This document shows, in pieces, positions 3,524 through 36,279 of a stretch of DNA of 64,000 nucleotides. The notes beneath the pieces were generated by a model. It had not been told where the DNA came from, did not search any database, and saw only the letters and a program-made list of their open reading frames with translations. Position numbers and translations under genes: made by a program. This DNA is from an uncultured Litoreibacter sp. (GTDB lineage: Bacteria > Pseudomonadota > Alphaproteobacteria > Rhodobacterales > Rhodobacteraceae): NCBI RefSeq assembly GCF_947487515.1, contig NZ_CANKWO010000002.1, forward strand, positions 186,001 through 250,000, read 5' to 3'. Within the stretch, counting starts at the first letter, position 1; every line of letters begins with the position of its first letter.

Positions 3524-4670
3524 GTGTCAGAGCCTGCTCAAGATCATAGATCAGATCGCTCACGTCCTCGATGCCGATAGAAAGGCGCAAAAGCTGCGGG
3601 TGTACCGGAAACCCTTCGCCCGAAACGGTTTTGCGGTGCTCAATCAGGCTTTCGACCCCACCAAGGGATGTTGCGGGGTAGAACACCTCGCAATACCGCG
3701 TGACGTCGATTGCCGTTTGCTCCGACCCTTTAACGATAATTGACATCATGCCACCAAATTTGCCGTCGGTTTGCAACTTGGCCACGGCATGTCCTGGATC
3801 GGACGGCAAACCGGGGTAGAGCACCTTTTCCACATGAGGATGACCATCGAAATGGCGCGCCACCGCCATGGCATTTTGGCAGGAGCGCTCGACACGCAAA
3901 AACAATGTTCGCATACCTCGGATCAGCAGCCACGCATCGAATGAATGCAAAACGGTGCCCTGCAATTTGCGCACCATGTAGATGTCTTCCCAGAACTGGC
4001 CGGTTTCGCGCACAGAAAGAACGCCAGCGGTCACATCTGAATGACCGTTCAAATACTTGGTCGCGGAATGGAAGGAAATATCCGCCCCGAAGTCCAATGC
4101 CCGCGTCAAATTTGGCGGCGTGCCGGTGCAATCAGTCAGCAGTTTCGCCCCTGCCCCATGCGCTATCTCGGCGGCGGCGGCGATATCGGTGACTTCCCAA
4201 TTGGGATTGTTTGGCGTTTCAACCCAAACCAGTGCTGTCTCTTCGTGTCGCACAGCGGCGGCCAGCGCGTCTAAATCGCCAGCGGCGTAATAGCTAACTT
4301 GGATTCGGCCATTGGCTTGATAGTTTTGGATCTGCGCCAAGACCCCATGATACATGACCTCCGGCACCACCACATGCGCGCCTGTGGGCAAATGCTCAAT
4401 CACCGCCGTACAGGCCGACATGCCGGAAGCAAACAGCAGCGTTTCCTTTGCGCCCTCCAGTTCGGAAATCACCGCTTCCGCATGAGCCGTCGTCTGACTG
4501 CCATCACGGCGATACCAATAGGGCTTGCGCACCTCGTAATTCTCGTCACGGGCGTAGGTTGCCGCAGGCTGAATGGATGGCACAACCGCGCCGGTCTCCT
4601 CTTCGGTGAAATGCAAGGCTTGGGTGACCTTGGTTACCAATGAGGGGGTGCGGTTGCTTTTGTCAGTCAT
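3510..4670 (-). CDS. Cys/Met metabolism PLP-dependent enzyme (cystathionine lyase/gamma-synthase family)
   Basis: 386 residues from the ATG at 4670; a GTG at 4721 would add 17 poorly conserved residues. Family features: a YRRDGSQTTAHAE cofactor-binding region near residue 50, FASGMSA near 80, the Asp that pairs with the pyridine ring (LLTDCTGTPP, near 180), and the Schiff-base lysine in SATKYLNGHSD near 202. Members catalyse beta- or gamma-elimination or replacement on cystathionine, homocysteine or methionine; which reaction applies here cannot be decided by eye. It lies on the same strand between secE (111 bases upstream) and nusG (235 bases downstream), breaking a pair usually adjacent in bacteria. 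Its stop codon lies in a 15-bp tandem duplication. Confidence 0.85.
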   Translation of the reverse strand: MTDKSNRTPSLVTKVTQALHFTEEETGAVVPSIQPAATYARDENYEVRKPYWYRRDGSQTTAHAEAVISELEGAKETLLFASGMSACTAVIEHLPTGAHVVVPEVMYHGVLAQIQNYQANGRIQVSYYAAGDLDALAAAVRHEETALVWVETPNNPNWEVTDIAAAAEIAHGAGAKLLTDCTGTPPNLTRALDFGADISFHSATKYLNGHSDVTAGVLSVRETGQFWEDIYMVRKLQGTVLHSFDAWLLIRGMRTLFLRVERSCQNAMAVARHFDGHPHVEKVLYPGLPSDPGHAVAKLQTDGKFGGMMSIIVKGSEQTAIDVTRYCEVFYPATSLGGVESLIEHRKTVSGEGFPVHPQLLRLSIGIEDVSDLIYDLEQALTRANN

Positions 4671-32358: not shown

Positions 32359-32691
32359 TTAACTTAACCCGTCTTGATCCAGTAGATGTCGCCCAGCTTT
32401 GTCTTCAACTTCGATCACCCAAAGGTCGGCATCAAAATTGCGTTGCTTGGCAATCGCTTCATCGACCTCGTGCTCTGCACCCTCCCGTAACACAACCCAA
32501 GCCCGCTCGCCGCTCATCAGATCAAACGAGCGCTGATAGACCACCGCTTGCCCGTCCAGCGTATTCACCTTCACCATAACCACGCCAGCCGTTGCATCGC
32601 CCTTGGCCGTCACGAACACCGGAATATCCGCCAGCCGCAAACGGGTCAGATAGGCTGAAACCCAGAAGTCTGTGGTCAGACGGTTAGTCAT
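32359..32691 (-). CDS. DUF1491-family protein
   Basis: 110 residues, a small alpha/beta protein beginning [20 protein letters not shown]. Its conserved [12 protein letters not shown], a repeat of Arg/Trp strands, and [14 protein letters not shown] at the C-terminus match DUF1491. It is confined to alphaproteobacteria, is regularly found between era and recO, and has unknown function. It overlaps the end of era by 8 bases and precedes recO by 10 bases. Confidence 0.85.
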
Positions 32692-33598
32692 TGCCGTCTT
32701 TGAAGTTCAGCCCCATTTCAGAGTACCGTTCGCTGTCTTCCAGCCAACCCGGACGAACTTTGACCTGCAAAAACAGGTGAACCTTGCGCCCCAAGAACTC
32801 GACGAGTTCTTCGCGGGCAGCCTTACCAACGGCTTTGATCGTCTCACCTTTGTTGCCCAAAACGATCCCTTTGTGCCCGTCGCGGACAACGTAGATCAGT
32901 TGCTCAATGCGGGCGGAGCCATCGTCTTTCTCTTCCCATTTTTCGGTCTCGACGGTCATCTGATACGGCAGCTCTTGATGCAAACGCAGCGTCAGTTTTT
33001 CTCGGGTGATCTCAGCCGCAATGTTGCGCATTGGGGCATCTGCCAGCTGGTCTTCCGGATACAGCCAAGGGCCTTCTGGCACTTCGCCTGCAAGCCAGCC
33101 GCGCAATGCATCAGTGCCATGACCTTTTTCAGCAGAGATCATAAAGGTCTCTTGAAACGCAAAACGTTCGTTCAACTCTTTGGTCAATCCCAGCAAAGCA
33201 TCCGTTTTCACGCGGTCGATTTTATTGATCGCCAAAATCACCGGCGCGCCGTCTGTACGCTCCGCCAAGCCATCCAGAATGGCGCTTACACCCTCAGTCA
33301 CCCCGCGATGCGCCTCGACAAGCAGCACCACAATGTCCGCGTCAGACGCACCTGACCAAGCGGCCGCGACCATGGCGCGATCCAAACGGCGGCGCGGGCG
33401 AAACAAACCAGGCGTATCAACGAACACCAGCTGCGCCTGACCTTCCATCGCGACACCCCGAATTCGGGCGCGGGTGGTTTGCACCTTATGGGTCACGATC
33501 GACACTTTCGCGCCAACCATACGGTTCAGCAGGGTGGATTTACCTGCGTTCGGCTCCCCAATCAGCGCGATGAACCCCGCGCGGGTTGCTTCAGTCAT
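32684..33598 (-). CDS. era: GTPase Era
   Basis: 304 residues from the ATG at 33598 (an upstream open frame is antisense-phase within rnc). G1 GEPNAGKST is at 14-22, G3 DTPGLF near 62-67 and G4 NKIDRV near 122-127. The C-terminal KH domain carries [22 protein letters not shown]. Era binds the 3' end of 16S rRNA and is needed for 30S assembly. Its ATG overlaps the rnc TGA (ATGA). Confidence 0.97.
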
Positions 33599-34275
33599 TT
33601 GTCTAGCCTTTCCAAAAGCGCCTTGGCCGCAGCCTGTTCCGCTTGCCTCTTGGCCCCTGCCTTCGCTTGCGCCTGCTCTCCAGAGGTCAGCGTCACCGCG
33701 ATGGTGAATTCCGGCGCGTGGTCGGGGCCTTCGCGCTTGATAATTTCGTAGCTCGGGGCCTGTTCGCCACGAGCTTGTACAAATTCCTGTAGGGCGGTTT
33801 TCGGGTCGCGGGCGTCGTCTTCGACCTCGTGCACGCGCGCCCCCCAAAGCCGCAAAATCAGATCGCGGGCTTTAGCGAAACCTCCGTCGCGGTAAACAGC
33901 AGCGATTAACGCCTCCATGCCGTCACCCAGCAGCGCCTCTTTGCGGCGCCCCCCCGAGACCATTTCCGATTTGCCCAATTTCAGCACGGCGCCCAGCTCT
34001 ATGTCGCGCGCAACCGCCGCGCAGGTTTCTTTGCGCACCAAAGCATTGTAGCGCGGGGCCAACACACCCTCGGTCGCACCCGTGTCAGCGTCGAGCAAAG
34101 CCTCAGCCATCACCAAACCAAGAACACGGTCTCCCAAAAATTCCAACCGCTGGTTGTCAGGCCGTGTCGCGGATGAGATCGAGCCATGCGTCAAAGCACG
34201 CACTAGAAGTTCTGGTTCAGTGAACCTGTATCCAATGCGGTCGCAAAATTTCGAAAGCTCACCCGACAGTTTCAT
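33595..34275 (-). CDS. rnc: ribonuclease III
   Basis: 226 residues from the ATG at 34275, whose ATGA overlaps the lepB2 stop; a start 5 codons upstream would overlap by 19 bases and is less likely. The RNase III signature [18 protein letters not shown] is near 37-54, with catalytic Asp and Glu; the second acidic cluster is in [17 protein letters not shown]. The C-terminal double-stranded-RNA-binding domain ends [15 protein letters not shown]. It processes rRNA and other dsRNA. Confidence 0.97.
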
Positions 34276-35012
34276 CGCAACCACGTCCAACTCCGCTCTT
34301 GAACACCTGCAAAATTAAACATCACAAGTTCGGCGCGCCCAATCACGTTGTTGACCGGAACAAATCCTACGCCACCCGCGACCTGTGGATAGCGACTATC
34401 AATAGAATTGTCGCGGTTGTCGCCAAGGAGGAAAATATGCCCCTCAGGTACGCTAAAAATGTCCGTACTATCAGAACGCGCCACGTCCGAGATGTTTAAC
34501 ACATCATAGGACACACCATTCTCCAATGTTTCAGAGAACCGTTGTTTTACACAATCCTCGCCCAAAGCAACATTACCATTTCCGCAGGCTGGGTACCCCC
34601 CCGTCACATTAGGGACAAAGGGCTCAACAAAGTCTTCTACCTGTGTTTGATCCAGTGCAACGCCATTTATTATCACCTCTCCATCAACCATCTGGACCTC
34701 ATCGCCAGAAAGCCCGATCACGCGGGATACATAATGGACATCGTTGACTGGATGTTTAAACACCACGACATCGCCTCGTGACAAGCTGTCTCCGATTACC
34801 CCGAGTTCTTCGGAACATCCCCCGAAAAAGCACCTTAGTTGCGGGAACCCATAGATCGCTCGATTGGCAATCATGTAATCACCGCTGCGCAAAGATGGTT
34901 GCATAGACCCCGATGGAATCCAAAACGGCCTAAAACACAAAACGAGTGCAGCAACACAGATTCCGATTGGCCCGAAAAGGTACAACAACCAGCGATATTG
35001 GGGTTCCAACAT
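34272..35012 (-). CDS. second signal peptidase I-like protein, catalytic Lys replaced by Ser
   Basis: 246 residues. Its single N-terminal membrane segment is about 9-28, then box B IPSGSM with Ser36 (nucleophile position), box [12 protein letters not shown], box [12 protein letters not shown]. In box D, where the tandem lepB has DYIKRLVG, this protein reads HYVSRVIG: Ser96 (codon TCC at 34725-34727) stands at the general-base lysine. It may therefore lack peptidase activity or be a partner of LepB. It is AT-richer than its neighbours. It starts 6 bases after the first lepB stop and overlaps rnc by 4 bases, so it is in the lepB-rnc-era operon. Confidence 0.9.
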
Positions 35013-35018
35013 TTAGAT

Positions 35019-35813
35019 CTACTCAATCGCTTTGAAGAAGCGATCGCTGCGCCAAGTCCAGAAATACAGCATGCGTGATCCCGCAGATGAGAACACGACG
35101 CGATCGGCACGCCCCAACAGATTGGCGAACGGCACCATGCCAACCCCGTCACCAGCCTGCGTAAAGCGGCTGTCGATAGAGTTATCGCGGTTGTCACCCA
35201 TGAAGAAGAAATGGCCCTCGGGCACATTAAAGACAGGGGTGTTATCTCCACCCAAGCCATTGCGAATGTTCAAAATTCTATGCTCCACGCCGCCTTCCAG
35301 CGTCTCAATGAAGCGTTCTTTTTCGCAGTCGCCGCCAAGGCCGACCGCGCCATTACTACATGCAGGGAAACTACCGACGGAGCCCTGCGCTTCATAGGTT
35401 TCCACGAATGGCTCTACCGGCACTTGCTTTTGCGCTTTGCCGTTCAAAAACAGCACACCATTCTTCACCTGCACTTTGTCGCCCGGCAGGCCCACAAGGC
35501 GTTTGATGTAGTCCTGCCCGCTTACAGGGTGGCGAAACACGACGACATCACCGCGTTCCGGCTCGCTGCCAAACAGGCGGTCTGGGATCGGGCAAACGCC
35601 AAAGGGACAGCTGTATTTTGAGTAGCCATAGGCCATCTTGTTAACGAACAAGAAGTCCCCAACGAGCAGTGTATCTTTCATCGACCCCGACGGAATCCAA
35701 AACGGCTGGAAGAACAGAGTGCGAAATACGGCGGCAATTGCCAAAGCGTAAACCACCGTCTTTACGGTTTCCATGATGCCTTCGGGCTCTTTGTCACTGC
35801 TGGGTGCCATCAA
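35019..35813 (-). CDS. lepB: signal peptidase I
   Basis: 264 residues. The membrane segment is about 17-36, followed by box B with catalytic Ser44 (IPSGSM), box C (GDVVVFRHP, about 88-96), box D DYIKRLVGLPGD with catalytic Lys104, and box [12 protein letters not shown] near the C-terminus. It removes signal peptides from Sec and Tat substrates at the periplasmic face. Two consecutive ATG codons make the exact start ambiguous by one residue. A degenerate tandem copy follows after 6 bases, then rnc and era. acpS lies upstream on the same strand. Confidence 0.97.
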   Translation of the reverse strand: MMAPSSDKEPEGIMETVKTVVYALAIAAVFRTLFFQPFWIPSGSMKDTLLVGDFLFVNKMAYGYSKYSCPFGVCPIPDRLFGSEPERGDVVVFRHPVSGQDYIKRLVGLPGDKVQVKNGVLFLNGKAQKQVPVEPFVETYEAQGSVGSFPACSNGAVGLGGDCEKERFIETLEGGVEHRILNIRNGLGGDNTPVFNVPEGHFFFMGDNRDNSIDSRFTQAGDGVGMVPFANLLGRADRVVFSSAGSRMLYFWTWRSDRFFKAIE

Positions 35814-35865: not shown

Positions 35866-36279
35866 TCAAGTCACAGCGGGGTCAATTGGACGCGCCTCGA
35901 TGACGACAAACGCCTGCGCCCAAGGGTGGTCATCGGTCAAAGTGACATGAATTATCGCCTCATGGCCCGCAGGTGTCATGTCGCTCAAACGCTCTGCGGC
36001 CCAGCCCGAGACTTCCATCACCGGCTGCCCCGTGCGCAAGTTGCTCACGGCCATGTCCTTCCACGCAATCCCCATGCGAAGCCCTGTCCCCAACGCCTTG
36101 GAGCACGCTTCCTTTGCGGCCCAGCGCTTGGCATATGTCCCCGCCACATCCTTACGGTTCTCGGCCTTGCGCTGTTCCAGATCAGTGAATACCCGATTTC
36201 GGAATCGATCCCCGAAACGATCCAATGTGCCTTGGATGCGTTCGATATTCGCCAAGTCCGTGCCGATGCCCAGTATCAT
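35866..36279 (-). CDS. acpS: holo-[acyl-carrier-protein] synthase
   Basis: 137 residues. [15 protein letters not shown] contains the metal-binding Asp8, and [14 protein letters not shown] (about 58-71) supplies the conserved Glu and Lys. It transfers 4'-phosphopantetheine from CoA to acyl carrier protein. It overlaps the LysE-type exporter gene by 4 bases upstream and precedes lepB by 52 bases in the same orientation, a common alphaproteobacterial order (pdxJ-acpS-lepB-rnc-era). Confidence 0.96.

Follow-up and report, generated by a model that had tools for sequence, protein, structure and literature searches.

Two signal peptidase genes upstream of rnc

We analysed a stretch of 64,000 nucleotides (nt) of DNA from an uncultured Litoreibacter sp. 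(Rhodobacteraceae, with the family taken in a broad sense), hereafter called the window, in which two signal peptidase I (SPase I) genes lie in tandem. The subject of the present study is the second of them, lepB2, whose product has a serine where the catalytic lysine would be expected. The gene order on the minus strand is acpS, lepB1, lepB2, rnc and era, with recO beyond, and six bases separate the lepB1 stop from the lepB2 start. A search for signal peptidases in the source genome (99.83% complete) gave two matches in total and no third one. The features are as follows.

34272..35012, minus strand: lepB2, SPase I paralogue without the catalytic lysine, 246 amino acids
34725..34727, minus strand: codon TCC, Ser96 of LepB2, at the catalytic-lysine place (E. 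coli Lys145 by alignment)
34905..34907, minus strand: codon TCT, Ser36 of LepB2, nucleophile position kept (E. coli Ser90 by alignment)
34935..35003, minus strand: predicted N-terminal helix, residues 4-26 of LepB2, from the secondary structure of the model; probably a single membrane anchor
35019..35810, minus strand: lepB1, housekeeping-type SPase I, 263 amino acids, with Ser43, Lys103 and box E
33595..34275, minus strand: rnc (RNase III), whose ATG overlaps the lepB2 stop by 4 bases
32684..33598, minus strand: era, the gene after rnc
35866..36279, minus strand: acpS, upstream of lepB1

Pfam PF10502 and NCBIfam TIGR02227 both assign the two products to SPase I, in accordance with the initial annotation, which had placed tandem SPase I copies at these coordinates and on this strand. 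LepB2 scored 138.7 bits against PF10502 (cut-off 22.9) and 133.7 bits against TIGR02227 (cut-off 47), and its structure model has a good SPase I fold. LepB1 holds Ser43 and Lys103 (AAA) as numbered from the ATG at 35810; the initial annotation had found the same residues, but called them Ser44 and Lys104 by counting from the TTG at 35813. In E. coli the numbering is Ser90, Lys145 and Ser278, the last of which is said, in passages of PMC4049620, to steady Lys145. Aligned to the E. coli enzyme, LepB2 keeps the nucleophile as Ser36 and has a whole box E including the equivalent of Ser278, but the catalytic Lys is matched by Ser96, and we confirmed the codon TCC reported there. Compared to canonical LepB (E. 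coli, PDB 1t7d and 1b12) and to LepB1, the fold, the IPSGSM box, box C, box E and the Arg after the lysine place are common to LepB2, but the general-base Lys is missing and GLPGD has become GLSGD by a change of the Pro. The C-terminus of LepB2 is also shorter than that of LepB1.

A read error at Ser96 was rejected, as TCC matches AAA and AAG at none of its three bases and the Lys is likewise missing from 17 further LepB2 rows of the set described below (G015 in the genus and 16 elsewhere). Because Ser96 replaces the Lys, we infer that the window LepB2 would not cleave signal peptides. The loss of catalysis proposed in the initial annotation is thus well supported, given the replaced Lys, the absence of a new Lys and the fold kept in the model.

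LepB2 might instead still cut with the help of a different base, for instance His93, and act as a substrate-selective second signal peptidase. The kept Ser36 and box E would agree with this, as would the 27 of 45 LepB2 rows that have the Lys, and some S26 peptidases carry His in place of Lys. On the other hand, the protein has just two lysines, Lys86 and Lys156, neither of them newly placed. Its histidines are at 87, 93 and 192, and His93 occurs also in those eight LepB2 of the genus that keep the Lys, hence it is no replacement; in the model it lies three residues off on a strand and probably faces away. Further, seven of the 18 Lys-less rows are also without the nucleophile. A migrated base is therefore unsupported, and the possibility raised earlier that a Lys or His from elsewhere fills the pocket finds no support from these residues. 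We regard a working peptidase with another base as very unlikely.

The LepB2 lineage in the family

A LepB2 profile search was run over 394 genomes from 393 genera. Besides the window genome, 59 genomes with at least two matches were picked by eye and re-examined, and 40 regions were taken, covering 35 of these 59 genomes along with four single-match genomes. Tandem copies of the LepB2 lineage were verified in at least 31 of the 394 genomes, window included, and as they occur in other genera we withdrew the idea that LepB2 is limited to the genus of the window. Among these 31 genomes the Lys is kept in 18 and missing from 13, and rnc follows lepB2 in 30, while in G178 the contig ends first. 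L220 (G310), which has a gap in the Lys column and a Gly by eye, was counted as Lys-less, and second matches on other contigs (G226 and G175) were left uncounted.

LepB2 lengths were computed for 29 copies; 24 measure 314-378 amino acids and five 222-241, the long forms being due to an N-terminal DUF805 (PF05656) that most copies carry as a fusion with the SPase part. DUF805 was matched in 26 of the 38 LepB2 scanned, and PF10502 in all 38. The window copy shares its clade and its place between lepB1 and rnc with the DUF805-SPase proteins of other genera, in which the Lys is often lost. It is without the domain that most of those carry, PF10502 being the sole match in its Pfam scan. As regards DUF805-SPase fusions outside the family, none of the matches listed there for a class sample of 385 genomes started before model position 104. 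A structure model of the DUF805 fusion in L136, made from a 4-row alignment, had a predicted local distance difference test (pLDDT) score of 38 and was unusable.

The rows of the tree include 43 of LepB1 and 45 of LepB2. The LepB2 set includes G112 (L221), which is outside the 31 genomes. It omits tandem pairs resembling ordinary LepB duplicates (L081/L189 and L192), Caulobacter-type pairs (L121, L122 and L125), repeats or near-repeats (L059, L063 and L116) and the chimera L065/L174 treated below. In this 92-row tree, LepB1 and LepB2 fall on two sides with supports of 92 and 93 by the Shimodaira-Hasegawa approximate likelihood ratio test (SH-aLRT), and the window copy lies within the LepB2 clade. 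The LepB2 support was 95.8 without three long rows and 95.9 with the trait columns masked. It should be noted that all trees were quick ones without bootstraps.

The two sides differ in the catalytic lysine, which is kept in all 43 LepB1 rows, together with the nucleophile Ser, vs 27 of the 45 LepB2 rows, and at least eight changes are needed within LepB2. In a wider set of 197 LepB1-like rows, which holds some repeats and rows from outside the family, the Lys column is conserved at about 1.00. Across LepB2 the Lys is replaced by A, G, Q, S, R, E or M, while 38 of the 45 rows keep the nucleophile Ser. All 45 keep Arg104, Met44, Asp52, Gly87, Glu169 and Pro197 (LepB1 numbers), of which Arg104 adjoins the Lys and Met44 follows the nucleophile. 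The equivalent of E. coli Ser278 in box E is lost from 11 of the 18 Lys-less rows vs none of the 27 Lys-keepers (Fisher 3e-6, a test that ignores kinship), the nucleophile Ser from 7 of 18 vs none of 27, and Pro109 from 10 of 18 vs 3 of 27. The window LepB2 has the Pro change but keeps the Ser278 equivalent, which would suit a younger loss of its Lys. Judged from the sequences, LepB2 is an old, family-wide paralogue lineage from a lepB duplication, in which the general-base Lys has been lost many times.

Selection, decay and the genus Litoreibacter

We further investigated selection on Lys-less copies by the ratio of nonsynonymous to synonymous substitution rates (dN/dS) in the genus of G149; four further Lys-less genera were represented by one genome each. 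In this genus LepB2 is without both the Ser and the Lys in all five species. The lepB2 dN/dS (NG86, ten pairs) was 0.100-0.126 in nine pairs and 0.203 in the closest pair, vs 0.021-0.073 for lepB1 and 0.015-0.077 for rnc, and the two parts of lepB2 behaved similarly (DUF805 0.066-0.243, SPase 0.094-0.162). Values of 0.10-0.20 in a protein without the catalytic pair mean purifying selection on a dead protein; LepB2 of this genus is hence a maintained pseudoenzyme under clear purifying selection, weaker than that on the neighbouring genes. Since these dead copies are under selection, some non-cutting role for the LepB2 lineage is likely. In the genus of G186 both genomes are Lys-less (Gln and Ala) with the Ser kept, as in the window.

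Our best explanation is that the window lepB2 encodes a membrane-anchored signal peptidase homologue from an old lepB duplication, which is predicted to be dead and probably acts as a non-cutting partner. We put this at a probability of about 0.58.

Several observations weigh against this explanation, and part of them also favour an alternative in which the window lepB2, as a duplicate, is at an early stage of decay, having lost catalysis first with the frame still open, and with deletion or conversion to follow as in sister species. Among the 21 genomes of the genus the second copy is found in 11, beside lepB1 and before rnc in every case, and it is absent from ten; in the eight of these ten that were readable, 3-55 bases lie between lepB1 and rnc. 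Eight of the ten unconverted LepB2 keep the Lys, the window has Ser and G015 has Arg. The conservation of Ser which the initial annotation had suggested looking for was thus not found, and Ser at the lysine place was rejected as a conserved feature (elsewhere the residue may be A, G, Q, S, E or M). In G015 the nucleophile, too, is replaced, by Asp (motifs PTGDM and HFIRR), and box E is GDNRDITADSR.

The remaining copy, that of G006 (L174), is a chimera in which the final ~540 nt are lepB1-like, with the Lys, and the 5' part is not. It is identical to the second copy of L. meonggei (L065), and gene conversion or unequal crossing-over between the tandem copies are candidate origins. In a tree of six neighbouring proteins the eight Lys-keepers form a single clade with a support of 100; the window and G015 fall outside it, in separate groups. 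Beyond that clade, ten genomes have no lepB2, two have a dead copy and one has a converted copy, and no near relative carries a copy with which selection on that of the window could be compared. The window copy and that of G015 stand apart in the gene tree as well, both on long branches, and one shared loss of the Lys may account for the two.

Further points on the same side come from the wider family. The Lys-keeping LepB2 (27 of 45) likely have a cutting role. When kinship was taken into account, the association of Lys loss with the other losses came down to three independent pairs on supported branches and was not significant; for Ser278 and the nucleophile these pairs showed the same direction or no difference, and for Pro109 occasionally the opposite one. 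Between lepB1 and rnc, L103 (3747-4399) has a frameshifted DUF805-SPase copy whose box D piece is Lys-less too (DFVGR), and L222 (G083; 1173-1476) has an 81-codon C-terminal lepB2 remnant. Given these broken copies and the patchy lineage, some lepB2 copies do decay. The GC content at third codon positions (GC3) is 0.502 in the window lepB2, whereas lepB1 and rnc have 0.652. When the last 210 codons were compared, a larger drop was seen in one of 42 other loci (L208), and GC3 of the Lys-less copies as a group was not clearly lower (Mann-Whitney p 0.07). The seven genes neighbouring the window lepB2 have GC3 of 0.63-0.69.

The missing copies of sister species, the overwritten copy of G006, the low GC3, the remnants in L103 and L222 and the long end branch of the window copy would all suit early decay. 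Against it, of 57 positions at which LepB1 hardly varies, 40 are kept in the window LepB2 and 41-45 in the eight Lys-keepers of the genus, and TCC is three base changes from a Lys codon. Box E is intact, and so are the frame and the overlap with rnc noted in the initial annotation, the latter being 4 bases long when the ATG at 34275 is taken as the rnc start. The dead copies of the G149 genus, moreover, are under purifying selection. We therefore consider early decay a real possibility for the window copy, but the less probable course of events.

The overlap with rnc also allows for lepB2 as a mere spacer, the translation of which drives that of rnc while its residues are irrelevant. In the window, and likewise in the nine further unconverted genus members, a start for rnc is available within the end of lepB2 (4 or 13 bases). 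In G006, however, the two genes are separated by a 7-base gap, relatives without lepB2 run from lepB1 straight to rnc, and the dN/dS of the dead copies in the G149 genus indicates that residues matter there. We find the spacer explanation highly improbable.

Putative role and known inactive homologues

As a non-cutting partner, LepB2 would be translated from the mRNA that also encodes LepB1, and would be anchored in the inner membrane with the SPase domain on the periplasmic side. There it might bind, without cutting, either LepB1 or the C-region of signal peptides, and would thereby hold, sort or hand over precursors, or tune LepB1. A chaperone-like partner or a regulator of LepB, as put forward in the initial annotation, is likewise a putative role. 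Such a mode would resemble that of SipA of Streptococcus pyogenes, the proposed binder of a pilus-assembly component.

Inactive SPase I homologues have been described in Gram-positive bacteria, as covered in parts of PMC4049620 and PMC12445088. Pilus polymerisation requires SipA (PDB 4n31 and 4k8w), a protein that has retained the peptide cleft but not the catalytic pair, according to passages of PMC4049620. It is without the Ser too (Asp48, Gly85), whereas LepB2 keeps the Ser and has only the Lys replaced. The SipA gene is found in pilus clusters, while lepB2 belongs to the lepB-rnc-era operon of an alphaproteobacterium and lies outside any sortase pilus cluster, with acpS, lepB1, rnc, era and recO as neighbours.

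The initial annotation places SpsA next to SpsB in Staphylococcus aureus. SpsA, the partner of SpsB, is an inactive SPase I homologue in a cell with an active one. LepB2, which accompanies LepB1 and has no catalytic Lys, would be of a similar kind if it is inactive as predicted, and to that extent the parallel with SpsA drawn in the initial annotation fits. It is less close in the residues, as passages of PMC12445088 describe SpsA as lacking two catalytic residues and as dispensable, and the window LepB2 lacks one. By analogy, the window LepB2 may work like SipA or SpsA.

In the open-access literature we found no account of a LepB of this family that occurs in tandem or linked to DUF805, judged by titles and abstract openings among the matches listed. 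Here members with and without the Lys coexist in one old lineage of a Gram-negative family, with repeated loss, and with purifying selection in one genus on members without either residue. This raises a testable question as to the role of a non-cutting signal peptidase, and whether LepB here is part of a complex, and the fusion offers a lead on DUF805, a membrane domain of unknown function. Further, we speculate that LepB2 might be the old, mostly DUF805-fused accessory subunit of a bacterial signal peptidase with two parts, binding precursors or LepB1 without cutting, with a catalysis that would be dispensable and was lost at least eight times. This is a tentative idea, which we hold to be rather doubtful.

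Some further loci were observed during the survey. L221 (G112 C3) has a Lys-less LepB2-like gene at 862-1948, away from the lepB1 locus, and in L091 the stretch from lepB1 to rnc (3777-4449) is mostly masked (N). Lys-bearing tandem copies like ordinary LepB duplicates are present in L189 (G241) and L192 (G201), from two other genera of the family, and in the three Caulobacter-type records L121, L122 and L125.
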